A program made the translations under genes and the position numbers. Under the pieces are notes generated by a model. That model made no database searches and was not told the DNA's origin. It saw only the letters and a program-made list of their open reading frames with translations. Below, piece after piece: positions 3,100 to 20,540 of a DNA stretch of 25,699 nucleotides. The stretch comes from a virus: positions 1 to 25,699 of IMG/VR virus record IMGVR_UViG_3300042898_000881, one strand, 5' to 3'. Every line of letters begins with the position of its first letter. Position 1 is the first letter of the stretch.

Positions 3100-3102
3100 T
3101 AA

Positions 3103-3110
3103 TATTTATA
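3103..3110 (+). promoter_or_regulatory. TATTTATA motif upstream of the three-domain enzyme gene
   Basis: The octamer TATTTATA lies in the 14-base gap and ends 3 bases before the ATG at 3114. The same octamer occurs in the gaps before the genes at 9039, 11855 and 20565. It is the reverse complement of the T4 late promoter core TATAAATA. Here it sits too near the start codon for an ordinary promoter of this gene, so its role is uncertain. Confidence 0.3.
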
Positions 3111-3113
3111 CAC

Positions 3114-6023
3114 ATGAATTTATTAACCGAAAAGGATAAACCAAAAATACAAGGTGAAATAGTAGTATACGCTGGTCGTTTTCAACCATTTCATAGAGGA
3201 CACAATGATGCTTACCAAAGATTAGTAGATGAATTTGGTTCTGCAAATGTTTATATTGCAACATCAAACGATACATCATCCGAAAAATCTCCATTCTCTT
3301 TTAGTGAGAAAAAAGAAATTGCAACTAAAATGTTTGGAATACCATCATCAAAATTTATAAAAGTAAATAATCCATATAGACCCGTTGAAATATTAAAAAA
3401 ATACGATGGCCAAACTATTGCATACATTGCAGCAGTAGGTGATAAAGACGCAAGTAGATTACAAGGTAAATATTTTAAACCATACAGAGGCAAAGCTGGA
3501 TATGGTTATGATGAAATTGGTTATACATATCCAATACCGGCTGAAAAGAATCCAATAAGTGGAACAGATGTTCGTAATGGATTGGGTAGTGGTGATGAAG
3601 AAAAAGCAAAAAAGTTTTTTTTAAAAGCATATCCAACATTTGACAAAGGAATTTTTAAAATGATAACAACAAAATTAAACGAAGGATTTCCTGGTGGTAT
3701 TGGTGTAGGACTAACATTGCCGGGTGGATATATCAATGGTGCACCAACTGGTTCAACTAATGAAAAATTTAACCCAATTCAAGAAATTGAAAACGATGTT
3801 AATACTTTTATAAATAAATATTTTAATGAAGGTATATCGGAATCAAAACAACAATCCATTCAGCATTTCGTAGAGTTTGCAACTAAAAGATTGAAATTAA
3901 AAGAATCACCAAAAATAAGTTTAGTAGCAGGTAGAGAATTTGCAGAAGTAAAAACAAGTTTAGGTGGATTCGACCCAGTATCAAAAGAAATATATGTTGC
4001 AACCGAAGGTAGATTGACTGCTGATATTTTAAGAACTCTTGCACATGAAATGGTTCATAGGAAACAAGATGAATTGGGACTGGTAAGAAATCCAATGAAA
4101 GATGGTGCGGATGGCTCTCCAATAGAAAACCAAGCACATGCCGTAGCAGGCATCTTAATGAGAGAATATGGTAGAGTTAATAAACAAATTTACAACGAAG
4201 ATATTAACATAGATGTTGATAAAGGTGATACCATCTTAATGGGTAAATTTAAAAATAAAAAAGTACAAGTTAAAGATATAGGAAAGGATGATTACGGAAT
4301 GCCAACTATAAATGGTAAGAAAGCTACTACTTTTAGATTAGGACAAAAAGGACAAAACATATATGAAATGGGTAATAAAGATGTCCATTTTATCAATATC
4401 ATAAAATTATATAGAAATGCAACATTCAGAAAAAGAATAAATGCATATCTTTTTGGTAGAGCAAATATGCCAGCAAATCCAAACGCAGTTGCAAGAGCAC
4501 TTCGTAATATGGGATATGATGAAATAACTCAAATGGAAAAGGAGTTAAATATTCAACCAGATTTGAATGAAGTTAGTAATGTTGCAATTGCAAATACCGC
4601 AGACGTTCCGGATGGTTCATTTATTCAAAAAGGTAAAAAAAGAAAATTAAATACCGATAAGAGTGAAGATTGGTATAAGAATGGTGGATATACACAAACT
4701 GAATTCCCGAAAGCAGATGCAATATTTGGTGATGAGGACGCTGAAGAAAGAATTGTAACATATAGTATACAAAATCTTCCTGATGTAGACTATGTAAAAA
4801 CAGATTTTATCAAAGAAGGTTTGTTGATGGAAGGTGGTGCATATGGACATATGTCACATCCGTTTGATGATATGGATTTAACCTTCGGAGATTTAAAAAA
4901 CATTATCACAAATGCACTTAATGGTGAATTGGGTATAGTAAGAGAAAAAACCGATGGCCAAGCTTTGGCAATAAGTTGGAAAAATGGTAGATTAATTGCA
5001 GCACGTAACAAAGGGCATTTATCAAATGCAGGTGCAAGTGCATTGGGAATAGAAGGCGTTGCATCTAAATTTCAAGGAAGAGGAGGGTTAACAGATGCAT
5101 ATAATTTTGCTATGAGAGATTTGTCTGCTGCAATATCATCTTTATCTCAAAAACAAAGAGAAAAAATATTTGACGAAGGTAAAAACTTTATGAACATTGA
5201 AGTTATATGGCCAACATCGGTGAATGTAATTCCTTATGGACAAGCTTTATTGGTATTTCACAATTGTATACAATATAATGAAAAGGGTGTTGCAATAGGA
5301 CAAGTAGATGGTGCAGAAAACATATTGGCAGGAATGATTAAAAGAGTTAATGCAGACGTTCAATCAAAATATACAATTCAAGGACCACCAATTACAAATA
5401 TACCAAAAAGTGATAATTTAAGTTCTAAACAGGGTAGATATCTTTCTAAATTAAATAAATTACAAAATGAATTTGGTTTAAAAGATTCAGACAATGTTGC
5501 AGATTATCATCAAAGCTGGTGGGATTGGTGGATTGAGTCAAATTCACCAACTAAAATTGATAAACTTACAAAAGAAGCATTGATTAGAAGATGGGCATTT
5601 GGTGAAAAATCATTTCGTTTAAATACAATATCTAATCTAGAATTACAAAAATGGGCAACTCAAAATGATAAAGTAAATGTTGCAAAACAACAAAAAGATA
5701 ACATTAAACCATTTGAAGAACTATTTTTAGGAGTAGGTGCAGATGTTTTAGAATTTGTAGGAAGTGTTTTGACTGTTCATCCTGACAACGCAATACGTGC
5801 AATGAAATCTAAATTAAAATCTGTGGCAGCACAGGTTAGAAATAGTGGCAGCCCTGCACAAATTCAAAAATTAAAAACAGAATTAGAAAGATTAAATCAA
5901 TTGGGTGGTATAGAAAAAATAGTTGCAAATGAAGGTTTGGTTTTTGTTTATAATGGAAAAACATATAAACTTACAGGTACGTTTGCACCATTAAATCAGA
6001 TACTTGGTATTTTTTACTCATAA
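3114..6023 (+). CDS. Three-domain protein: NMN adenylyltransferase-like, zincin-like and ligase-like nucleotidyltransferase domains
   Basis: The 969-residue product has three recognisable parts. Residues 16-180 carry YAGRFQPFHRGH (the HxGH-type nucleotide-binding motif of cytidylyltransferase/NMNAT folds) and ISGTDVR (148-154, the ISSTxxR motif). Residues 240-350 contain LAHEMVHRKQDE (HExxH at 311-315), a zinc-metalloprotease signature, with downstream acidic or His candidates in ENQAH (338-342) as third ligand. Residues 575-969 carry VREKTDGQALAI (KTDG at 612-615, the lysine-adenylation motif I of ligases), MNIEVIWP (about 693-700), ANEGLVFVY (motif IV-like, 938-946) and YKLTG (motif V-like, 951-955). 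It could handle nicotinamide nucleotides and adenylate or ligate a nucleic acid, but activity is inferred. The ATG has no Shine-Dalgarno sequence. Confidence 0.75.
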   Translation: MNLLTEKDKPKIQGEIVVYAGRFQPFHRGHNDAYQRLVDEFGSANVYIATSNDTSSEKSPFSFSEKKEIATKMFGIPSSKFIKVNNPYRPVEILKKYDGQTIAYIAAVGDKDASRLQGKYFKPYRGKAGYGYDEIGYTYPIPAEKNPISGTDVRNGLGSGDEEKAKKFFLKAYPTFDKGIFKMITTKLNEGFPGGIGVGLTLPGGYINGAPTGSTNEKFNPIQEIENDVNTFINKYFNEGISESKQQSIQHFVEFATKRLKLKESPKISLVAGREFAEVKTSLGGFDPVSKEIYVATEGRLTADILRTLAHEMVHRKQDELGLVRNPMKDGADGSPIENQAHAVAGILMREYGRVNKQIYNEDINIDVDKGDTILMGKFKNKKVQVKDIGKDDYGMPTINGKKATTFRLGQKGQNIYEMGNKDVHFINIIKLYRNATFRKRINAYLFGRANMPANPNAVARALRNMGYDEITQMEKELNIQPDLNEVSNVAIANTADVPDGSFIQKGKKRKLNTDKSEDWYKNGGYTQTEFPKADAIFGDEDAEERIVTYSIQNLPDVDYVKTDFIKEGLLMEGGAYGHMSHPFDDMDLTFGDLKNIITNALNGELGIVREKTDGQALAISWKNGRLIAARNKGHLSNAGASALGIEGVASKFQGRGGLTDAYNFAMRDLSAAISSLSQKQREKIFDEGKNFMNIEVIWPTSVNVIPYGQALLVFHNCIQYNEKGVAIGQVDGAENILAGMIKRVNADVQSKYTIQGPPITNIPKSDNLSSKQGRYLSKLNKLQNEFGLKDSDNVADYHQSWWDWWIESNSPTKIDKLTKEALIRRWAFGEKSFRLNTISNLELQKWATQNDKVNVAKQQKDNIKPFEELFLGVGADVLEFVGSVLTVHPDNAIRAMKSKLKSVAAQVRNSGSPAQIQKLKTELERLNQLGGIEKIVANEGLVFVYNGKTYKLTGTFAPLNQILGIFYS

Positions 6024-6070
6024 TTTGATATATATTATAATAATAAACAGTTACAAAAAGAAAGATTAGT

Positions 6071-6739
6071 ATGGCAAAAAGAAAAAGTTTTGATGAGAAA
6101 TCAAAAGGGATGCACAAATCTCGTAAACTCATTATAGACACGGTTTTTGGAAGACAAGATAATACTCAAAGAGTGTTTGGTTACGAAAAAGAAGTTGAAC
6201 AAAAAAGAGAAGTTGGAGAACGATGGGTTGATAAAGAAGGTAAAGAGTGGGAACAACAAAAAGGATTTGTTTCCGCAGTAACTCAAATGGATGACATTAG
6301 AAAGTACTTAGATAAATTGAGTACATGTAGTAATACAGAATGTCAAACTACAAAATTATCAACAGCAGATAAAAAATTAATTCGTAAAACTGGAATGTGT
6401 GTAACTTGTTTGGCGAAATATGAAATAGAGTTAAAAAATGATGGTACATATCCATTTTATGAAGATTATAAAATAACTCTTAATAAATTGGGATTTGTTA
6501 GAGATATAAAAGCCCAATATGAAGAAGCATTACTGGGAATTAAACAACAAATAGAGCAAGTTACCGAAGATGGTAGAATTGAAAAGTGGACATGGGATGT
6601 TGATATTGAAAAAGTAAAACAGGATTTAAGAAAAGACATCGATGGAGCGTATGAGGCCATTGAATTATTAATAGAAAGAAAAAGGTTATTAGAAGAAAAA
6701 TTGGTTGAGTTAAATCATCCAGAATTAATTAAAAAATAA
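6071..6739 (+). CDS. Zinc-ribbon and coiled-coil protein of the packaging block; possible small-terminase equivalent
   Basis: A 222-residue protein with a basic start (MAKRKSFDEKSKGMHKSRK), a segment GERWVDKEGKEWEQQKGF, and four cysteines in a C-x4-C-x18-C-x2-C array (Cys86, 91, 110, 113) that look like a zinc ribbon. The last 80 residues are highly charged and helical, probably coiled coil. I recall similar proteins in other T4-like phages without a proven function. It lies two genes before the large terminase, near where T4 carries gp16, so a small-terminase or DNA-recognition role is possible. That is inference from position only. Upstream (6024-6070) is AT-rich with an AGAAAG purine stretch but no clear ribosome binding site. 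Confidence 0.7.
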   Translation: MAKRKSFDEKSKGMHKSRKLIIDTVFGRQDNTQRVFGYEKEVEQKREVGERWVDKEGKEWEQQKGFVSAVTQMDDIRKYLDKLSTCSNTECQTTKLSTADKKLIRKTGMCVTCLAKYEIELKNDGTYPFYEDYKITLNKLGFVRDIKAQYEEALLGIKQQIEQVTEDGRIEKWTWDVDIEKVKQDLRKDIDGAYEAIELLIERKRLLEEKLVELNHPELIKK

Positions 6740-6744
6740 AAATT

Positions 6745-7398
6745 ATGAAAAAATTATTGAATTTTAAAAACATTGCAATTGCAGCTTTAATCATTTTTAT
6801 ATTATTACAATGGTTTAACCCAGGTGATATTCTACCTGGTAAAAAAGTTTACATTGAAGGTAAAGCATACGAAGTTATTAAACATGAGATTGATACAATT
6901 GATATTGTAAAAACAAAAGTAGTAACTAAAAAAGGTGAAGATATTTATCACGAAACAATCGTTGAAAAAGAAGTACAAGTACAAGTTCCTGCAATCGTAG
7001 ATACTATGGCTTTATTAAAAGATTACTATTCAAAAGTATTATACAAAGATACATTGGTTTTACCTGATTCATTGGGTATCGTTTCTTTATTAGATACAAT
7101 TTCACAAAACAGAATATTGGGTAGAACATTTAATGCAAGTGTTAAACAAAGAACTATTAAAGAAACTATGATTGTTAAAGAATTACCAAAAACACAAGTA
7201 TATTATGGTTTAACTGGTGGATTTAACAAAGCAGATGTAGTTTCAAATGTAGGTGCAGGATTACTTATAAAAACTAAAAAAGACAAAATCTATAATTTAG
7301 GTGTTGGTGTTTCTAATAGAGTATCCGATGGAACCAATGGAACATTATCTCCATATATTGGTGGTGGTGTTTATTGGAAGCTTAAATTGAAAAAATAA
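6745..7398 (+). CDS. Membrane-anchored protein with beta-rich C-terminus (DUF6808-like)
   Basis: A 217-residue protein. Residues about 10-23 (IAIAALIIFILLQW) form one N-terminal membrane anchor after a lysine-containing start, so most of the chain would lie outside the cytoplasm. The middle (45-145) alternates valine, threonine and charged residues and has repeated KEV/VQV-type strands. The end (150-217) has alternating small and aromatic residues (YYGLTGGF, NLGVGVSNR, YIGGGVYWKLKLKK) like outer-membrane beta-hairpins. The overall layout recalls the DUF6808 family of Bacteroidota and their phages. It ends in the TAATG overlap that starts the large terminase. Candidate roles include a spanin-like lysis protein or an envelope-contact factor; neither is proven. 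Confidence 0.7.
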   Translation: MKKLLNFKNIAIAALIIFILLQWFNPGDILPGKKVYIEGKAYEVIKHEIDTIDIVKTKVVTKKGEDIYHETIVEKEVQVQVPAIVDTMALLKDYYSKVLYKDTLVLPDSLGIVSLLDTISQNRILGRTFNASVKQRTIKETMIVKELPKTQVYYGLTGGFNKADVVSNVGAGLLIKTKKDKIYNLGVGVSNRVSDGTNGTLSPYIGGGVYWKLKLKK

Positions 7399-9008
7399 TG
7401 GGAGTTCAAGGGCAACCTAAGAAATCATTAAAAGAGATAATTGCTGAAGAATATCGTAAATGTGCGTTAGACCCAATTTACTTTATGAAGAAGTATTGTG
7501 TCATTCAGCATCCGGTGAGAGGAAAAATACCCTTTCACCTTTATCCATTCCAGGAAAATTGTTTAACAGACTTTAAAGATAATCGTTTTAACATTATTCT
7601 TAAATCCCGTCAGTTGGGCCTATCGACCTTATCTGCAGGATATATTTTATGGAAGATGTTATTCAATCAAGACTTTAATGCGTTGGTAATCGCAACGAAA
7701 GTGACCGTAGCTAAGAATCTGGTAGAGAAGGTAAGAGTTATGCACGACTTACTTCCTGTTTGGTTAAGAGATGGTGGTAGTAGTTCGGTAGAAGATAATA
7801 AACTTTCCCTTAAATTAAAAAATGGTTCACAAGTAAAGGCAATCGCAAGTTCTCCGGATGCAGGTCGTTCTGAAGCCCTATCCCTATTAGTTGTGGATGA
7901 AGCTGCATTCATTAGAGATATCGATGAAATTTGGTTATCTGCACAATCAACTCTATCAACGGGCGGTGCTGCAATCGTATTATCTACTCCAAATGGTGTG
8001 GGTAACTGGTTCCATAAAATGTGGGTAGAAGGTGAGAGTGGTGCAAACGGATTTAATTGTATTAATTTACATTGGACAGTACATCCAGAAAGAAATCAGG
8101 CATGGAGAGACGAACAAACTAGAATTTTAGGAGTAAAAGGTGCATCACAAGAATGTGATTGTGATTTTGTTGGTTCAGGTGATACCGTAATAGACCCTGC
8201 ATTATTGACTTGGTATAAAGACACATATGTAATGGAGCCGGTTGAAAAAAGAGGTTTTGATGGAAATTTGTGGGTGTGGGAACATCCAAATTATAATAGA
8301 GCATATATGGTGTGTGCGGACGTTGCACGTGGTGACGGAGCTGACTATTCTACTGCACAAGTTATAGACATTGAAGATAGTTCACAAGTTGCAGAATATA
8401 GAGGTAAAATTGATACAAAAGATTTTGGAAACTTTTTAACTGCATTAGCAACTGAATATAATAATGCACTTTTAGTGGTGGAGAATTCAAATGTAGGTTG
8501 GGCATGTATTCAACAAATTATCAATAGAGGATATGGTAATTTATTTTATATGTCAAATGATTTACAATATATTGATACCGAAAGACAAATGTCAAACAAA
8601 TATTATAGAGATGAACGCCAAATGGTTGCAGGATTTTCGACAACCAGTAAAACTCGTCCACTTATCATATCAGCATTGGACACATATATGAATGATAAAG
8701 ATATTCTAATTCGCTCAAGTAGATTAATAGATGAAATGTTTACATTTATTTGGCATAGTGGAAGAGCAGAAGCAATGAAAGGATACAATGATGACCTTAT
8801 TATGGCACTTGCAATCGGATTATGGGTTCGTAATACTGCATTGAGATTGAAACAAGAGGGGATTGATTTAACAAAAACTATGTTAAATTCATCATATGTA
8901 AGTAAATATGAAAGTGTGTATACTACAAATACACATTTAAAACAAAATCCATACGAAATGGACTTGGGTAAAAAGGGAACTGAAAATTTAAATTGGTTAT
9001 TGGGATAA
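7398..9008 (+). CDS. 17: Terminase large subunit (gp17-like)
   Basis: A 536-residue T4-type packaging motor subunit that pumps DNA into the prohead and cuts the concatemer. The N-terminal ATPase shows the phage-type Walker A SRQLGLST (residues 70-77), Walker B LSLLVVDEAA with Asp167 and catalytic Glu168, and the coupling motif VLSTPNG (194-200). The C-terminal RNase H-like nuclease has its acidic triad in VCADVARGDGADYS (Asp308), LLVVENSN (Glu362) and YNDDLIMALAIG (Asp465/466). Length is close to other members of the family. It starts on a one-base overlap with the membrane-protein gene, with no ribosome binding site. Roughly the first 550 bases use more CGT arginine codons and more G/C than the nuclease half. 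Confidence 0.96.
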   Translation: MGVQGQPKKSLKEIIAEEYRKCALDPIYFMKKYCVIQHPVRGKIPFHLYPFQENCLTDFKDNRFNIILKSRQLGLSTLSAGYILWKMLFNQDFNALVIATKVTVAKNLVEKVRVMHDLLPVWLRDGGSSSVEDNKLSLKLKNGSQVKAIASSPDAGRSEALSLLVVDEAAFIRDIDEIWLSAQSTLSTGGAAIVLSTPNGVGNWFHKMWVEGESGANGFNCINLHWTVHPERNQAWRDEQTRILGVKGASQECDCDFVGSGDTVIDPALLTWYKDTYVMEPVEKRGFDGNLWVWEHPNYNRAYMVCADVARGDGADYSTAQVIDIEDSSQVAEYRGKIDTKDFGNFLTALATEYNNALLVVENSNVGWACIQQIINRGYGNLFYMSNDLQYIDTERQMSNKYYRDERQMVAGFSTTSKTRPLIISALDTYMNDKDILIRSSRLIDEMFTFIWHSGRAEAMKGYNDDLIMALAIGLWVRNTALRLKQEGIDLTKTMLNSSYVSKYESVYTTNTHLKQNPYEMDLGKKGTENLNWLLG

Positions 9009-9013
9009 TTATA

Positions 9014-9021
9014 TATTTATA
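9014..9021 (+). promoter_or_regulatory. TATTTATA motif, candidate late-promoter element before the Cys-rich gene
   Basis: The octamer TATTTATA in context TATATTTATATG lies 17 bases before the ATG at 9039, in the 30-base gap after the terminase. The context also fits TAnnTTT, close to the Bacteroidota -7 element TAnnTTTG. The recurrence of the motif upstream of other genes in the window is the main support. Confidence 0.35.
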
Positions 9022-9038
9022 TGTTGAAACTCTTATAG

Positions 9039-10016
9039 ATGAACGAAGATTTAAATAAATGGTTTAAAGAAAAATGGGTAAACATTGGCAAAAAGGTCGA
9101 TGGTAAACACCCACCATGTGGAACTTCGGGAGAAAAAAAGGGTTATGCAAAATGTGTTCCTGCAGCAAAAGCAGCCGGAATGAGTAAAAAAGAAAAAGAA
9201 AGTGCTACTAGAAGAAAGAGAGATGCACAAAATGATGCAGGAAGAGGTGGAAAAGATAGTAGTGGACAAGGTAAAACACCAATATATGTTTCAACAAAAC
9301 CAAAAAATGAAACTATGAACATAGAAGAAAGAATAAATTTATTTTTAGAAAAGAATTGCCCAACTGACCCGGGTAAGTGGTCTGCAAGTAAATCCGCAGC
9401 TAAGTCTAAGTTTGATGTATATCCATCAGCTTACGCAAACGGATGGGCTGCAAAAAACTACAAATCAAAGGGTGGTGGATGGAAAACTTGTAATGAAGGT
9501 GAAGTTAATGGACTTTGTGAGGCATGCTGGGATGGATATAAACAAGTTGGTGGTAAAATGAAAAATGGTAAGATGGTACCAAATTGTGTACCTGTAAGTG
9601 AAGATATAGATAGTGATGACGATGTAAATTATGGTTTAGTTGAACCTGAAGAATATGATGTTGAGGATGAGGATATGGAGGATTTTATTTCATTTATGAG
9701 AAATTACGCAAAAGACTTAAATGAAGAAACCTGTCCTTGTATGCATGAAGCAGAATATCAAGGTAGAGAAGTTAAGTTAGGTAAACCAATGAGAGGTGAT
9801 GTTAAGAAGTTTAAAGTATATGTAAAGAATCCTGCAGGTAATGTTGTTAAAGTAAATTTTGGACATGGTGGAACATCGGCAGCGGCTAAGGGTGAGAAAA
9901 CAATGAAAATAAGAAAATCTAATCCAAAAGCAAGAAAATCTTTTAGAGCTAGACATAATTGTGATAGTCCAGGTCCAAGACATAAGGCAAGATATTGGAG
10001 TTGTAGGAAATGGTAA
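9039..10016 (+). CDS. Cys-rich basic multidomain protein between terminase and portal (DUF5872-like N-terminus)
   Basis: The 325-residue protein looks modular. Residues 1-75 (LNKWFKEKWVNIGKKVDGKH, then CGTSGEKKGYAKCVPAAKAAGM) match my memory of the phage DUF5872 family. Residues 105-190 hold a lysine/tryptophan-rich segment (KWSASKSAAKSKFDVYPSAY) with CNEGEVNGLCEAC and CVPVSED. An acidic linker (190-215) follows. Residues 240-325 form a basic domain with KFKVYVKN, VVKVNFGHGG and FRARHNCDSPGPRHKARYW, ending SCRKW, a pattern seen in many T4-like phage head-region genes. Nine or more cysteines suggest metal binding. The basic, Cys-rich ends fit an internal head or DNA-associated protein, but no function is proven. 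Confidence 0.75.
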   Translation: MNEDLNKWFKEKWVNIGKKVDGKHPPCGTSGEKKGYAKCVPAAKAAGMSKKEKESATRRKRDAQNDAGRGGKDSSGQGKTPIYVSTKPKNETMNIEERINLFLEKNCPTDPGKWSASKSAAKSKFDVYPSAYANGWAAKNYKSKGGGWKTCNEGEVNGLCEACWDGYKQVGGKMKNGKMVPNCVPVSEDIDSDDDVNYGLVEPEEYDVEDEDMEDFISFMRNYAKDLNEETCPCMHEAEYQGREVKLGKPMRGDVKKFKVYVKNPAGNVVKVNFGHGGTSAAAKGEKTMKIRKSNPKARKSFRARHNCDSPGPRHKARYWSCRKW

Positions 10017-10070: not shown

Positions 10071-11807
10071 ATGGCAGATAAATCAATATTTAGTAGGTTA
10101 CAGAAATTATTTTCAACAAACACCATTGTTCGTAAAACACAAGATGGTGTAAAAGTGGTAGATACGGATGAGTGGCAAAATATGACCACTAATCTGGTTG
10201 ACCGTTTTATGAAAATGAAGGTGACAAACTATGGAACCGGTGCAACTCAATCATCGATGGCATACCAACAAGTTAGAATTGATTTGTTTAGAGACTATGA
10301 TTCTATGGATATGGACCCGATATTATCATCGGCTTTAGATGTCTATTCGGATGAAACTACGGCTAGAAATGAAATGGGTAATGTATTAAAAATACATCAC
10401 GAAGACGACCAAATAAAACAAATATTAGAAAATTTATTCTATGATGTTCTTAATGTAGAATTCAACCTCTGGCCATGGACTAGAAATTTAGTTAAATATG
10501 GTGATTTCTTTTTACAATTAGAAATAGCAGATAAATTGGGTATTGTAAATATAATGCCACTATCTACATATGAAGTTAGTAGAGTAGAACAATTTGACCC
10601 AGAAAATCCACAAAGAGTTAAATTCATATATGCACCATATCAAAACCCATCGGGTGGCTATGGACAAACTCCAAAAAAAGAATTTGAGAATTATGAAATG
10701 GCCCACTTCCGTTTAAATTCGGATTCAAACTTTTTACCTTACGGAAAATCAATGATTGAAGGAGCTAGAAGAGTTTGGAAACAATTAATGTTGATGGAAG
10801 ATGCTATGTTAATCCACAGAGTGATGAGAGCTCCTGAAAAGAGAATCTTTAAAATTGATGTGGGTAATATTCCCCCAAATGAAGTTGATAACTACATGCA
10901 AAAAATCATCAATGGTTCAAAGAAAGTTCCATTTGTAGATGAAAGAACCGGTGAGTACAATTTGAAATACAATATGCAGAACCTAATTGAAGATTATTAT
11001 ATGCCAGTTCGTGGTAATGATAATGGTACTTCAATTGATACCCTAAAAGGTTTGGAATACAATATGATTGATGATATTAATTACTTAAAAGGTAAGTTAA
11101 TGGCAGCATTGAAAATTCCAAAAGCATTCTTAGGATATGAAGAAGATGTGAATGGTAAAGCAACGCTTGCAGCACAAGATGTTAGGTTTGCAAAAACAAT
11201 TGAAAGAATACAGAGAGTATTGATTTCTGAATTAACCAAAGTAGCAATTATTCACTTATATGCACAAGGTATCACCGATGATAGACTAACTGATTTTACA
11301 TTAGAACTTACAATTCCATCTAAAATTTACGAACAGGAACAAGTTGAATTGTATACTTCAAAAGTAGCATTAATTCAACAAATGCAACAAACAAAAATGT
11401 TCTCAAAAGAATGGATGTATGAAGCAGTAATGAAAATGGCAAAAGATGAACAAGATGAAATGACATTACAAGTATTGGATGATACAAAACAAACATTCCG
11501 TTTAACTTCAATTGAAACACAAGGTGTAGACCCTGCAAAAGAAACGGGTACAGAAGGTACTACAAATGTTGAAGAAGAATTGGACAAACTAAAATTGGAA
11601 TTGGAAGATAAAGGTGGTAGACCAAAAGATGCAATTAGATATGGTAAGGATGACCACCCACAGGGTAGAGACCCTTTGGGAATTAAAACTCTTAAACAAA
11701 AAGAGGGTTCGGTTAAATATAAAGCAAGAGATTCTTATTTAGAGATATTTAAAGATATGAACGGTAATAAGAAGACTATTTTAACCGAAGATTTAACAAA
11801 AGAGTAA
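10071..11807 (+). CDS. 20: Portal vertex protein (gp20-like)
   Basis: A 578-residue T4-type portal protein, which forms the dodecameric ring at the unique capsid vertex, nucleates prohead assembly and serves as the DNA channel. Diagnostic segments are DPILSSALDVYSDETT (83-98), LVKYGDFFLQLEI (140-152), the HRVMRAPEKRIFKIDVGNIP core (249-268), LIEDYYMPVRGNDNGTSIDT (305-324), LKGKLMAALKIPKAFLGYEE (339-358) and the following helix-rich crown segment. The C-terminal 80 residues are charged and probably flexible. It follows the Cys-rich gene rather than gp19, so the T4 genes 18 and 19 are absent from this position. Confidence 0.95.
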   Translation: MADKSIFSRLQKLFSTNTIVRKTQDGVKVVDTDEWQNMTTNLVDRFMKMKVTNYGTGATQSSMAYQQVRIDLFRDYDSMDMDPILSSALDVYSDETTARNEMGNVLKIHHEDDQIKQILENLFYDVLNVEFNLWPWTRNLVKYGDFFLQLEIADKLGIVNIMPLSTYEVSRVEQFDPENPQRVKFIYAPYQNPSGGYGQTPKKEFENYEMAHFRLNSDSNFLPYGKSMIEGARRVWKQLMLMEDAMLIHRVMRAPEKRIFKIDVGNIPPNEVDNYMQKIINGSKKVPFVDERTGEYNLKYNMQNLIEDYYMPVRGNDNGTSIDTLKGLEYNMIDDINYLKGKLMAALKIPKAFLGYEEDVNGKATLAAQDVRFAKTIERIQRVLISELTKVAIIHLYAQGITDDRLTDFTLELTIPSKIYEQEQVELYTSKVALIQQMQQTKMFSKEWMYEAVMKMAKDEQDEMTLQVLDDTKQTFRLTSIETQGVDPAKETGTEGTTNVEEELDKLKLELEDKGGRPKDAIRYGKDDHPQGRDPLGIKTLKQKEGSVKYKARDSYLEIFKDMNGNKKTILTEDLTKE

Positions 11808-11825
11808 TAAACCAATAATAAAATA

Positions 11826-11833
11826 TATTTATA
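11826..11833 (+). promoter_or_regulatory. TATTTATA motif, candidate late-promoter element before the prohead core block
   Basis: The octamer TATTTATA in context TATATTTATATC lies 21 bases before the ATG at 11855, in the gap after the portal gene. The flanking bases match the copy at 9014. It may mark a transcription start for the prohead core genes. Confidence 0.35.
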
Positions 11834-11854
11834 TCAGAATAATTGTATAATTTG

Positions 11855-12727
11855 ATGAAAAAAATAAAACATTCGAAATTTAAAAATACTGGATTTATAT
11901 TTGAATTGCTAGTAAGACAAATTACCGCAGAAGTAATGTCATCAAGTAAATCAGTAGCAGAAAAATTATTAAAAGAGCATTTTAATTCTAAAAAAGAATT
12001 ATCTAAAGAATTAAAACTATATCAATATCTTATAAATGAAAAATATAATTCAGAATCAAAAGCTGAACAATTTATCAATACAATATTAGAAGCTCGTAAA
12101 AAAATTGATGAGAAAAAACTTACAAAAGAAAAGTATAATCTTATCAAAGAAATAAAAGAAACTTATAATTTAGATGAGTTTATCAAATCTCCAATTTCTA
12201 ATTATAAAATGTTAGCATCTATTTACAAAATATTTGAAACAGTAACAACTGATGCACAATACGAACCAACCGACATAGTATCAGCTAGATTTACAATAGC
12301 CGAAAATATTATCAATACATCTATTCAAAATAAAGATGTAAAAGTAAAAGATGCGGTTTTGGAAGAATATAGAAAACAAGATGATGATTTAAGAGCGGTT
12401 TCTTATAAATTATTGGTAGAATCCTTTAATAAAAAATATAGTAATCTTACAAATGACCAAAAGGGTTTATTGAGAGAATATATTAATAATATTAATAATA
12501 CAGGTAAATTAAGTGAATATGTTTCAACCGAAGTAACTAAATTAGTAGAAGGATTAAAAGAAGTTGGTTCTAAAATTTCAGACAAAGTTACAAAAATAAA
12601 ATTAGCAGAAACAATTGTAAATATAAGAAAAATTAAATCTGCTAAAAAAATTAAAGAACAACATTTGTCTGCTATGATGATGACTTATGAATTATTAAGT
12701 GAATTAAAACAATCAATAAAAAAATAA
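11855..12727 (+). CDS. Helical Lys-rich protein between portal and protease
   Basis: The preferred start is the ATG at 11855 (MKKIKHSKFKNTGFIFELLV), because this N-terminus matches my memory of a conserved protein of T4-like marine phages; an in-frame TTG at 11843 would add four residues but is unlikely. The 290-residue product is almost entirely charged helix, with LLVRQITAEVM near the start and KIKLAETIVNIRKIKSAKKIKEQ near the end. No catalytic motif is visible. In T4 the interval between genes 20 and 21 encodes the small prohead core proteins gp67 and gp68, so a core or scaffold-partner role is a reasonable inference from position. No Shine-Dalgarno sequence precedes the ATG. Confidence 0.75.
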   Translation: MKKIKHSKFKNTGFIFELLVRQITAEVMSSSKSVAEKLLKEHFNSKKELSKELKLYQYLINEKYNSESKAEQFINTILEARKKIDEKKLTKEKYNLIKEIKETYNLDEFIKSPISNYKMLASIYKIFETVTTDAQYEPTDIVSARFTIAENIINTSIQNKDVKVKDAVLEEYRKQDDDLRAVSYKLLVESFNKKYSNLTNDQKGLLREYINNINNTGKLSEYVSTEVTKLVEGLKEVGSKISDKVTKIKLAETIVNIRKIKSAKKIKEQHLSAMMMTYELLSELKQSIKK

Positions 12728-13863: not shown

Positions 13864-14454
13864 ATGAATAAAGGATTATTAATAGAAACTCATTTGTTTG
13901 AAGCAAAACTTCAACAAGAAGAAAACGGAACTTATTTAGTTAAGGGAATCCTACAAAGAGCAGGTGCTCCAAATCAAAATAATAGAAGATACCCAAAAGA
14001 AATCCTAGAAAGAGAGTGTCAAAAGTATCAACAACTTATTAAAGAACGTAGAGCATTGGGTGAATTAGACCATCCAGAATCTCCGGTTATCAATTTAAAG
14101 AATGTATCACATAACATTAGAGAAATCTATTGGGAAGGCGATGATGTATGTGGAGTGGTAGAAATACTTTCAACCCCATCGGGCAACATCTTAAAAGAAT
14201 TATTAAAAAATAATATTCGTTTAGGCATTTCATCAAGAGGATTGGGTTCGGTAAAAGAATTGAGAGATGGAACTGTAATGGTAGCAGAAGATTTTGAATT
14301 GGTGGGTTGGGATTTTGTTTCAAATCCGTCAACACATGGTGCATTTATGGCCCCTATGAACGAATCAAAGCAATGGGCAAAGGTAGCTGAAGAATGTGGT
14401 AAGTGGTGTAAGTCACAAGATTTAATGAGAGAAATTATAATTGAACTTAATTAA
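13864..14454 (+). CDS. 21: Prohead core protease (gp21-like)
   Basis: The 196-residue protein has the layout of T4-type prohead proteases, which cleave scaffold, core and capsid proteins after L/I-x-E during head maturation. Visible signatures are NNRRYPKEIL (about 39-48), the catalytic His in GELDHPES (His70), the nucleophile in IRLGISSRGLGSV (Ser123 or Ser124), and the acidic triad candidate in VGWDFVSNPSTHGAFM (Asp150). Its own N-terminus contains LIE and LFE, possible self-cleavage sites. It sits between portal and scaffold, as in T4, with the start one base after the previous stop. Confidence 0.94.
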   Translation: MNKGLLIETHLFEAKLQQEENGTYLVKGILQRAGAPNQNNRRYPKEILERECQKYQQLIKERRALGELDHPESPVINLKNVSHNIREIYWEGDDVCGVVEILSTPSGNILKELLKNNIRLGISSRGLGSVKELRDGTVMVAEDFELVGWDFVSNPSTHGAFMAPMNESKQWAKVAEECGKWCKSQDLMREIIIELN

Positions 14455-14463
14455 TATAGAGAT

Positions 14464-15786
14464 ATGGTTAATGAAATGAGTTGGCATCAGTTTTCTACTT
14501 TACCAGGAATGAATAAAGTTCCACAACATGAAGTTGAAAGACAATATAGAATATATCTAAATGAAATTGCAGAACAAAGAATTGCAATACATTTGATACA
14601 AGAAGCAGCTATGACCCAAGCAGAAGCTATGGCAGTAGCAGCATCAAATGGTGGTGGCTCTTACATTATCCAACAAGAACAAGGTGATTTACCATCAAAC
14701 GCTATTGAATTAGTAGTATCAGCAGCAAATGGTAGTTCATTTGGTATGAGTGATATTATTGTATCCGCTCTTACTACAATTGATGTTGATTGGGGTGATG
14801 GAGCTACTGATACTTACGAAATTGCAAGTGATGATGGATTTTCGCATACATTTGATGTAAGACCAGAACCTTATACGATTAGAATGACTTTTAGTGATAT
14901 AAGTTTGGTAACTGAATTTTATGTAAGTAATAATAGTGCAAATGTAACAGAAGCAATAGGTTTACAAAACCTTATAAATCTTACACATTTAGAAATAGAT
15001 AATAACGCACTTACATCAATTGATGTATCAGGGATGTCAAATCTTATAAGTTTAGATGTGAGTGATTGTGTTATTGATGGGACAAGTACACCATCTTTAA
15101 CTTCTGTTAATGTATCAGGATGTACATCTCTCGAAACACTTCGTGTTGATGATAACGATTTCTCATCAGGATTCCCTGATTTATCGGATTGTACTGCATT
15201 AGTTAGTATAGATTTTGACCAATGTGGTTTAACAGGTTCCGTAGATATATCTAATTTACCTGCATTAGAATACCCTGATTTTGGTGGTAATACTCAATTA
15301 ACTGAAATAATCATATCAAGAACTCAACCATTGGGTGCGAATGCTAATGAAATATTATTTAATAACTGTGCTTTAACTCAAACTTCGGTAGATAATATTC
15401 TTTTAGAGTTAGCTAGTGGTAGTGTTTCAAATGGGTATATCAGTTTAAATGGTGGAACAAACGCTACACCTGGTGAAGTAGGTAGAGAATCACTTTTTGT
15501 TCTTGATTCAAGAGGTTGGAGCTTTACTATCACCAATGGTAATCATACTTCATTGGACGTAGCGTACGAACTACTTCAAACTAATATATGTGCTAGTACA
15601 AATACAGTCAACCGCTATATTGTAAGTGGCTCGGCAGTAGAAGTTGGTAATAAATTATATCAAAATTCAGAGGCATGGAATCCTGCACCTGCCGGTTGGT
15701 ATAGAATTGATGGAGATGGTTCGGTTAAATTTGAAGTAAGTGGTAGTAAAGGTGAAATCATATCTACTGCACCTTGTGGAGTATAA
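14464..15786 (+). CDS. BspA-like leucine-rich-repeat protein in the head operon
   Basis: The 440-residue protein has four parts. Residues 1-60 (EMSWHQFSTLPGMNKVPQHE...) form a charged helix ending in a low-complexity AMAVAA stretch. Residues 75-160 include IDVDWGDGATDTYEI and SHTFDV, a PKD-like WGDG strand found before BspA-type LRRs. Residues about 165-310 form irregular leucine-rich repeats (LINLTHLEIDNNALTSIDVS; MSNLISLDVSDC; TSLETLRVDDNDF; TALVSIDFDQCGLTGSV). Residues 340-440 form a C-terminal beta domain with GRESLFVLDSRGWSF and PAGWYRIDGDGS. No signal peptide or anchor is seen. Position next to the protease suggests a capsid component or decoration protein, perhaps attached by the N-terminal helix; BspA-type LRRs usually bind host surfaces or proteins. 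Confidence 0.8.
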   Translation: MVNEMSWHQFSTLPGMNKVPQHEVERQYRIYLNEIAEQRIAIHLIQEAAMTQAEAMAVAASNGGGSYIIQQEQGDLPSNAIELVVSAANGSSFGMSDIIVSALTTIDVDWGDGATDTYEIASDDGFSHTFDVRPEPYTIRMTFSDISLVTEFYVSNNSANVTEAIGLQNLINLTHLEIDNNALTSIDVSGMSNLISLDVSDCVIDGTSTPSLTSVNVSGCTSLETLRVDDNDFSSGFPDLSDCTALVSIDFDQCGLTGSVDISNLPALEYPDFGGNTQLTEIIISRTQPLGANANEILFNNCALTQTSVDNILLELASGSVSNGYISLNGGTNATPGEVGRESLFVLDSRGWSFTITNGNHTSLDVAYELLQTNICASTNTVNRYIVSGSAVEVGNKLYQNSEAWNPAPAGWYRIDGDGSVKFEVSGSKGEIISTAPCGV

Positions 15787-18825: not shown

Positions 18826-20442
18826 ATGGACATTAAAAAATTAATGACTGGCGCTAACCCTCAAAGCGTAATGCTTGAACAAACTAGAGGTTTGAAAAGC
18901 AAATGGGAAAAAACAGGTCTACTTGAAGGAGTAGGTTCTGAAACAACTAAGCATGGTATGGCAGTAATGTTAGAAAACCAAGCTAAACAATTATTAGATG
19001 AGGCTACAAGAACAGGTACATCTTCTGGTTCAGAAGAGTGGGCAGGTGTTGCGTTACCTTTGGTGAGAAGAATCTTCGGTTCTATCGCAGCTAAAGAATT
19101 CGTTTCAGTTCAACCAATGAACTTACCTTCAGGTCTTATTTTCTACATGGACTTTAAATATGGTACTAACACAACTTTAGGTAGACCAGCAGTAAGTGAA
19201 TCATTATTCGGTAATGGTGGTACTTTCGGTAAAGATAACTTATCTCCTGCAGGAAACAAATTAGGTTCAACTCAAGCAGCTGAAGGTGGTTTGTATGGTG
19301 CTGGTAGATTTGGATACACAATCAACGATACAACTGCAGCAGCAGTTGCAACTGTAACTTCTGGTTCTGCATCTGATTTCTTAGGTAACGAAACATTATC
19401 TGCATCTTTTGCAGCAACTCCAAACGGTTGGAGAAAAGTAAAAGTAGGTTTACCTTCTAACGCTGATTACAATGGTGTAAGAGCATTTAAAGTTTCTGGT
19501 TCAACTGCAGTAACTTTATTCCCTGAATTAACTACTGTAGATAGTTTAGGTTCTGCATCTTTCTATGTATCTTCTTCAGCTGTATTGGTTGCAACTGACT
19601 TAGTAACTCAAACTTTGACTTACCATGTACAACCTAATGATATCTCAAGAGGTGATTTTGAAGATAGAGGAACCGATTTAGCAATCCCAGAAATCGAATT
19701 AGAATTGAAATCTGAGCCTATCGTTGCTAAGACAAGAAAATTAAAAGCAATTTGGACTCCTGAATTAGCTCAAGACTTAAACGCTTACCATAGTGTAGAC
19801 GCTGAAGCTGAGTTAACTCAAATGTTGTCTGAGTACATCTCTTTAGAAATCGACTTAGAAATCTTAGAAATGTTACAACAAAACGCTTTCACAACTGACT
19901 ATTGGTCAGCTAGAGTTGGATACGATTATGATTCTGCTTCTGGTAGATTCGCAGTTGATTCTAACGCAGCAGCTGCTTCTGCTTACACAAAGAGCACTTG
20001 GTATCAAACTTTGGGTATTAAATTACAAAAAGTTTCTAACAAGATTCATCAATTAACTATGAGAGGTGGTGCAAACTTTATCGTTGTATCTCCAAACGTA
20101 GCAACAATTTTAGAATCAATGAATGGTTTCTCTGCTAATCCAGGTAAAGACGCTTTATCTTTCGCAGCAGGTGTTTCTAACATCGGTTCTATCTCTAACA
20201 GATATGACGTTTACAAAAACCCATACATGACTGAGAATGTAATCTTATTAGGTTTCAAAGGTTCTAACTTCTTCGAAACAGGAGCAGTTTACGCACCATA
20301 TGTACCATTGATTATGACTCCATTAGTTTATGACCCAACTAACTTCACTCCAAGAAGAGGTGTTATGACTAGATACGCTAAGAAAATCGTAAGACCAGAA
20401 TTTTACGGTAAGATTATCGTTGATGGTTTAAACACTTTATAA
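18826..20442 (+). CDS. 23: Major capsid protein (gp23-like)
   Basis: The 538-residue protein has the T4-type HK97-fold capsid layout. The N-terminal delta domain (about 1-59) ends in AKQLLDEATRTGTS, where L-D-E at 57-59 fits the gp21 cleavage consensus, as at T4 gp23 Glu65. Next come LPLVRRIFGSIAAKEFVSVQ, PMNLPSGLIFYMDFKYG, the repeated-strand insertion, KTRKLKAIWTPELAQDLNAY, ISLEIDLEILEMLQQNA and the C-terminal RGVMTRYAKKIVRPEFYGKI. It would form the hexamers of the head shell. The codons prefer AAC, TTC, TAC and GCT, unlike most neighbours, consistent with very high expression. No Shine-Dalgarno sequence precedes the ATG, only an A-rich leader (TTAAAAAAACAAACA). A strong terminator follows. 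Confidence 0.95.
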   Translation: MDIKKLMTGANPQSVMLEQTRGLKSKWEKTGLLEGVGSETTKHGMAVMLENQAKQLLDEATRTGTSSGSEEWAGVALPLVRRIFGSIAAKEFVSVQPMNLPSGLIFYMDFKYGTNTTLGRPAVSESLFGNGGTFGKDNLSPAGNKLGSTQAAEGGLYGAGRFGYTINDTTAAAVATVTSGSASDFLGNETLSASFAATPNGWRKVKVGLPSNADYNGVRAFKVSGSTAVTLFPELTTVDSLGSASFYVSSSAVLVATDLVTQTLTYHVQPNDISRGDFEDRGTDLAIPEIELELKSEPIVAKTRKLKAIWTPELAQDLNAYHSVDAEAELTQMLSEYISLEIDLEILEMLQQNAFTTDYWSARVGYDYDSASGRFAVDSNAAAASAYTKSTWYQTLGIKLQKVSNKIHQLTMRGGANFIVVSPNVATILESMNGFSANPGKDALSFAAGVSNIGSISNRYDVYKNPYMTENVILLGFKGSNFFETGAVYAPYVPLIMTPLVYDPTNFTPRRGVMTRYAKKIVRPEFYGKIIVDGLNTL

Positions 20443-20518: not shown

Positions 20519-20540
20519 ATTTATATAATTCATATTTATA
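20518..20540 (+). promoter_or_regulatory. Two TATTTATA motifs before the neck block
   Basis: TATTTATA occurs at 20518-20525, overlapping the terminator tail, and at 20533-20540, 24 bases before the ATG at 20565. A new promoter is expected here because a terminator has just ended the previous transcript, which makes this the best-supported place for the motif to be a promoter element. Confidence 0.45.

Follow-up and report, generated by a model that had tools for sequence, protein, structure and literature searches.

The locus analysed here can be compared with several known kinds of protein: the internal proteins of T4, polyvalent proteins, and the NMNATs and RNA ligases of phages. The T4 proteins Alt, IPI, IPII and IPIII carry a short N-terminal sequence with a gp21 site at its end, are head cargo and are probably injected. 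The gp21 protease of T4 cleaves after L/I-X-E, and IPIII needs no more than its first ten residues to be incorporated into the head (PMC9026906). The N-terminus of IPII and IPIII is MKTYQEFIAE/A (a slash stands after the Glu of the motif here and below). T4 makes one such protein per gene, whereas the protein described here holds several enzymes in one chain, has sites in nearly all linkers and carries other enzymes.

Polyvalent proteins (PMC5512222) are large multidomain phage chains with unrelated enzymes, including a zincin, and are predicted to be injected. The protein of this study likewise joins catalytic domains of several unrelated kinds in a single polypeptide. It differs in that its gene sits in a T4-like head cluster, and in that cutting is ascribed mainly to the zincin there and to a separate gp21 protease here. 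No NMNAT or ligase-type domain was found named among polyvalent proteins in the accessible part of that report.

The cyanophage virion NMNAT/cytidylyltransferase proteins (PHROG 395/3041) share the NMNAT-like domain and a capsid-targeting-like N-terminus, have been detected in virions, and have a neighbouring KxDG protein (DUF6267). There the genes are separate, and the sequence link between DUF6267 and the C-terminal ligase-fold domain of our protein (NTL) is not significant. Naegleria Rnl, T4 Rnl1 and T4 Rnl2 share with NTL the covalent nucleotidyltransferase fold, as modelled, and motifs I, III, IV and V. NTL differs from ATP-dependent RNA ligases in three respects: about 180/396 of its residues superpose at 10–15% identity, motifs III and IV are set apart by a large helical insertion, and no Pfam RNA-ligase model matches it. 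Our search of the open-access literature gave no description of an enzyme polyprotein that is shuffled and has maturation-protease sites in the linkers, and none of an NTL-like ligase-type family.

The window is the whole stretch of 25,699 nucleotides that was analysed, a linear IMG/VR virus fragment (IMGVR_UViG_3300042898_000881, positions 1 to 25,699) from a T4-like phage. The polyprotein gene is part of the head cluster, which also holds the terminase, portal and scaffold genes.

3114..6023, + strand: modular polyprotein, 969 aa, an open frame with relatives in 453 candidate IMG/VR stretches
7398-9008, + strand (same strand as the polyprotein ORF): terminase
10071-11807, + strand (same strand as the polyprotein ORF): portal
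13864..14454, + strand: gp21-type head maturation protease (PHROG 207, E 4e-53)
18826..20442, + strand: major capsid protein, gp23-like (PHROG 138, E 1e-72)

The first-pass annotation had described the polyprotein as a three-domain fusion. The 969-aa open frame and the motifs that it gave were correct (GRFQPFHRGH is at 21, ISGTDVR at 148, HEMVH at 311, KTDG at 612, EGLVF at 940 and KLTG at 952), and all three motif sets belong to true conserved domains. The count was too low, as the protein contains at least six modules.

3114..3131, + strand: N-terminal propeptide or capsid-targeting-like sequence MNLLTE/, with MN..[LI]xE conserved among relatives
3156..3683, + strand: NMNAT module (residues 15-190), with GRFQPFHRGH and ISGTDVR, ending in LNE190/GF
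3684..3842, + strand: linker (residues 191-243), in which E224 and E243 each close an [LI]xE site
3843..4199, + strand: HEMVH gluzincin-like module (residues 244-362), from HExxH, AF2 and structural matches
4206..4361, + strand: small module 'SH3' (GDTILMGKFKNKK..., residues 365-416), found at differing positions in relatives; 'SH3' is a mere label and not a fold assignment
4368..4565, + strand: small helical module 'HEL' (residues 419-484), AF2 helices with pLDDT about 70-84
4572..4811, + strand: module 'GGY' (YKNGGYTQTEFPKAD..., residues 487-566), without a confident fold
4812..4832, + strand: double predicted prohead-protease site IKE568/GLLME573/GG, with [LI]xE/G[GA] here in 191/197 relatives
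4833..6020, + strand: NTL, ligase-fold nucleotidyltransferase (residues 574-969), from AF2, VIA and motifs

In the window protein, three further small modules thus separate the zincin from the ligase-like domain, and the relatives have two more. The relatives contain up to eight modules in shuffled order, and the window protein is among the shorter ones in this modular family. Profiles of the eight modules gave more than 60 arrangements, many of them truncated at contig ends. For the small modules that lie between zincin and NTL, the orders SH3-HEL-GGY, GGY-HEL-SH3 and GGY-SH3-HEL were seen. The profiles also showed that modules are lost or gained between relatives, that some relatives have no zincin and that NMNAT is placed C-terminally in two. 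Microcystis phage Mel-JY01 has NMNAT and NTL and no other modules, in a chain annotated as 'cytidylyltransferase like protein'. The cyanophages B23 and S-SRM01 encode the HExxH module as a small protein of its own. In most relatives the linker after NMNAT holds the TMI and TM2 modules (about 400 aa). The AF2 model of residues 221-573 was poor outside the HExxH and helical modules, and therefore 'SH3' and 'GGY' are given no fold assignment.

The two modules inserted after NMNAT, one with long hydrophobic helices, were seen at residues about 230-690 in L007, L046 and their relatives; both are absent from the window protein. An uncultured huge phage (L086) encodes a stand-alone ligase-like protein (5977-7239) whose N-terminus is targeting-like, and the next gene (7262-9232) encodes 657 aa with an NMNAT-like domain at the end.

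The NMNAT module matched PF01467 (E 1e-6), PHROG 395 (5e-12) and PHROG 3041. A family profile of 25 sequences matched archaeal NMNATs at 2e-11 (about 1e-11 for MJ0541 and the M. thermoautotrophicum-type NMNAT), with PPATs far behind. These matches bear out the NMNAT domain proposed earlier. Residues 15-190, with the GxFxPxHxGH and SGTxxR motifs, are classified by sequence as an archaeal/NadM-type HIGH nucleotidyltransferase and predicted NMNAT. NadV is the usual partner of phage NMNAT. It was found in only 1/13 relatives, whose records may be incomplete, and a full two-step NAD salvage pathway is unsupported. Since NadV is rare, host NMN would be the substrate of the NMNAT.

HExxH was present in 100/100 complete domains, and a downstream Glu (GS..E motif) was invariant. 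The AF2 block of this module had pLDDT values of mostly 75-89. Its VIA structural matches, with Z from 9.0 to 7.0, were SPRTN (9.0), Wss1 (8.8), selecase, IrrE and ArdC. On this model the module is a putative gluzincin/M78-SprT-like metallopeptidase. PF20573, PF20352 and M78 were rejected as its Pfam family because every match was below the cut-off.

In NTL, Lys612 is motif I, E940-G is motif IV and K952 is motif V. The motifs EKxDG, EGxxF/W and (Y/F)KxTG were each present in 197/197 C-terminal domains, and Lys612 was invariant in a 31-sequence alignment with identity down to 35%. The AF2 model had a pLDDT of 84. Its VIA matches had moderate values (Naegleria Rnl Z 7.9, T4 Rnl1 7.2, T4 Rnl2 6.2), and the best 40 rows were RNA and DNA ligases throughout. 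From these moderate Z values and the KxDG, III, IV and V motifs, NTL is assigned to the covalent nucleotidyltransferase (RNA/DNA ligase, capping) superfamily. The first-pass annotation had proposed zincin and nucleotidyltransferase domains; both folds were recovered in the models and HExxH and Lys612 are conserved, so that neither of its own grounds for refutation applied. A Pfam search with four NTL members gave no ligase family at E ≤ 1, and a PHROG search of NTL gave nothing at 0.1. A match to the ribosomal protein eS6 profile (E 5e-4) was rejected as compositional; it covers mostly a charged helical part and conflicts with the motifs and the model. An Rnl1-type ligase is also encoded in 4/13 relatives, and therefore a packaged NTL probably serves another job.

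In cyanophage loci L330-L341 and L394-L400, DUF6267 (PHROG 455) lies directly upstream of an NMNAT with a capsid-targeting-like N-terminus. Its KWDG, EGFV and KL motifs recall those of ligase-type nucleotidyltransferases, and DUF6267 may correspond to NTL as a gene of its own. It was not accepted as a proven relative: the two share a layout (HxxH..ED, KxDG, EGFV), but hhalign of alignments of 24 and 34 sequences gave P of only 0.035-0.085.

Nine [LI]xE motifs occur in the 969 aa (E6, E190, E224, E243, E264, E418, E486, E568 and E573). Eight of them coincide with module boundaries, and E264 alone lies inside the gluzincin module. The boundaries were first set from BLAST breaks, before the motif was considered. 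Compared with shuffles across the family, [LI]xE was 2.2-fold enriched in linkers and depleted to 0.41 in the NMNAT, HE and NTL interiors, the strict form ([LI]xE followed by G, A, S, N, D, E, V or M) gave 3.0-fold and 0.23, and same-phage controls gave 1.16 (TerL), 1.64 (epimerase) and 1.10 (transketolase-like) with no depletion; these ratios are descriptive and not probabilities, because the motif is short and kin sequences are not independent, and shuffles overstate the significance. Control patterns with other spacings or other residues did not combine linker enrichment with domain depletion. The polyprotein linkers are predicted from this pattern to be gp21 cleavage sites. The gp21-type protease gene lies 8 kb downstream of the polyprotein gene, and such a gene was also present in 13/13 larger relatives tested. 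The gp23-like capsid protein has an N-terminal propeptide with LDE59/A, which is likely a substrate site of the same protease.

An ordinary multi-domain enzyme for NAD salvage and RNA/DNA ligation, neither processed nor packaged, would carry linker [LI]xE motifs that are incidental. In its favour, every catalytic motif is conserved, and NAD synthesis and RNA ligases of phages are well-known counter-defence (PMC9503650). However, the enrichment in linkers with depletion in domains, the shuffling of modules and the head-gene neighbourhood argue against it, as do the N-termini and virion data given below, and we consider it improbable.

The [LI]xE/G[GA] motif before NTL was seen after seven different preceding modules; six junctions were without it. 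The junction between HE and 'SH3' had [LI]xE in 5/72 and YNE in most relatives, and therefore this pair may stay joined. The junctions also bear on which protease would cut. The first-pass annotation had suggested that the HExxH domain is an autoprocessing protease between the enzymes, and Iyer et al. (2017; PMC5512222) put forward zincin self-cutting for polyvalent proteins, in which zincins are the most frequent domain. The HExxH domain would then cut its own chain, in the head or after injection, and free the other enzymes. Such a role fits a conserved, gluzincin-like domain. However, relatives without the zincin keep the same pre-NTL motif in 37/39 complete ORFs, the motif is of the gp21 type, and in B23 and S-SRM01 the HExxH domain is a protein of its own. 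Autoprocessing is therefore given little credence, and cleavage by the gp21-type protease is preferred.

An [LIVF]xE motif stands between the start Met and NMNAT in 89/99 relatives. Stand-alone cyanophage NMNATs begin with MKKFSDFLTE/A, MKKFSAFLIE/A, MKNFHQFITE/A, MRFRQFIIE/A or MKFIEFLKE/A, the B23 HExxH protein with MNYKQFLRE/S, and the stand-alone NTL of the uncultured huge phage with MKFLKSYEEFLNE. In sequence, the cyanophage stand-alone NMNAT and HE N-termini resemble the T4 capsid-targeting sequence. The S-SZBM1 NMNAT, which has the N-terminus MRFRQFIIE/A, was detected in CsCl-purified virions (PMC9146016). NMNAT-like proteins were also detected in S-CREM2 and S-SCSM1 virions (PMC10665884, PMC9602691), and the authors of one virion proteome noted possible carry-over of highly expressed proteins (PMC10665884). 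These mass-spectrometry data concern distantly related NMNAT-like proteins of cyanophages and not the window phage or its close relatives. A tblastn search with the window NMNAT did not reach these proteins; the window NMNAT and the cyanophage proteins both match PHROG 395 and 3041 and are distant relatives. The targeting-like N-termini and the detection in virions are not expected of an unpackaged enzyme.

A short element lies directly upstream of the polyprotein gene.

3102..3110, + strand: ATATTTATA, a conserved element that stops 3 bases short of the polyprotein start codon

It precedes the polyprotein gene at 28/29 homologous loci (window included), amid varying surrounding DNA. The window has 7 copies versus 1.8 expected, and copies at 9013-9021, 11825-11833 and 20532-20540 also lie just upstream of head genes, those at 9039, 11843 and 20565. 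The element is likely a late-promoter-like element, a candidate proposed from these positions.

The location among head genes, next to those for terminase, portal and scaffold, would also suit a packaged and cut protein that is mainly part of the prohead core and aids head assembly or DNA packaging (e.g., nick sealing) and is not ejected. T4 IPIII influences head morphogenesis (PMC9026906). A core role of this kind seems unlikely to us, as the catalytic residues are strictly conserved and the modules are dispensable and exchangeable among relatives.

The domains, their conserved catalytic residues, the shuffled modules and the way in which the cleavage motif is placed and depleted lead us to infer, with a probability of roughly 0.7, that the protein is a late capsid-cargo polyprotein. 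It would be made late, together with the head genes, and its N-terminal peptide would take it into the prohead core. The gp21-type maturation protease would cleave the linkers at [LI]-x-E, and the mature head would keep the NMNAT, the gluzincin, the ligase-type nucleotidyltransferase and the small modules as separate proteins. These enzymes would be ejected with the DNA, like T4 Alt and IPI-III. In the host cell, before phage gene expression, the NMNAT would add to the NAD supply, and RNA (or DNA) would have its ends joined or modified by the ligase-type enzyme; the gluzincin would act on some host protein. The anti-defence role suggested in the earlier annotation is plausible for such cargo. 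Ready-made counter-defence enzymes carried in the head could act ahead of any phage gene expression.

We speculate, at about even odds, that a tailed phage here follows a picornavirus-like strategy: injectable enzymes are strung together in a shuffled polyprotein, the capsid maturation protease frees them in the prohead, domain interiors are purged of its motif, and preformed NAD synthesis and nucleic-acid repair, with a new ligase-type family, arrive at the moment of infection. If so, a tailed phage uses its maturation protease to split several enzymes from one chain, and [LI]xE-flanked modules would let injected effectors be read directly from T4-like genomes. Such effectors would include the 'cytidyltransferase' of many cyanophages and the NTL family, which has no Pfam or PHROG model.

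Other products of the head cluster also contain [LI]xE motifs. The 294-aa protein between the portal and protease genes (11843-12727) has 19 of them, far above its neighbours, and may be a core or scaffold component that the maturation protease breaks down. The 440-aa protein directly after the protease gene (14464-15786) has a leucine-rich-repeat-like sequence, with LNE, IAE and IQE near its N-terminus.
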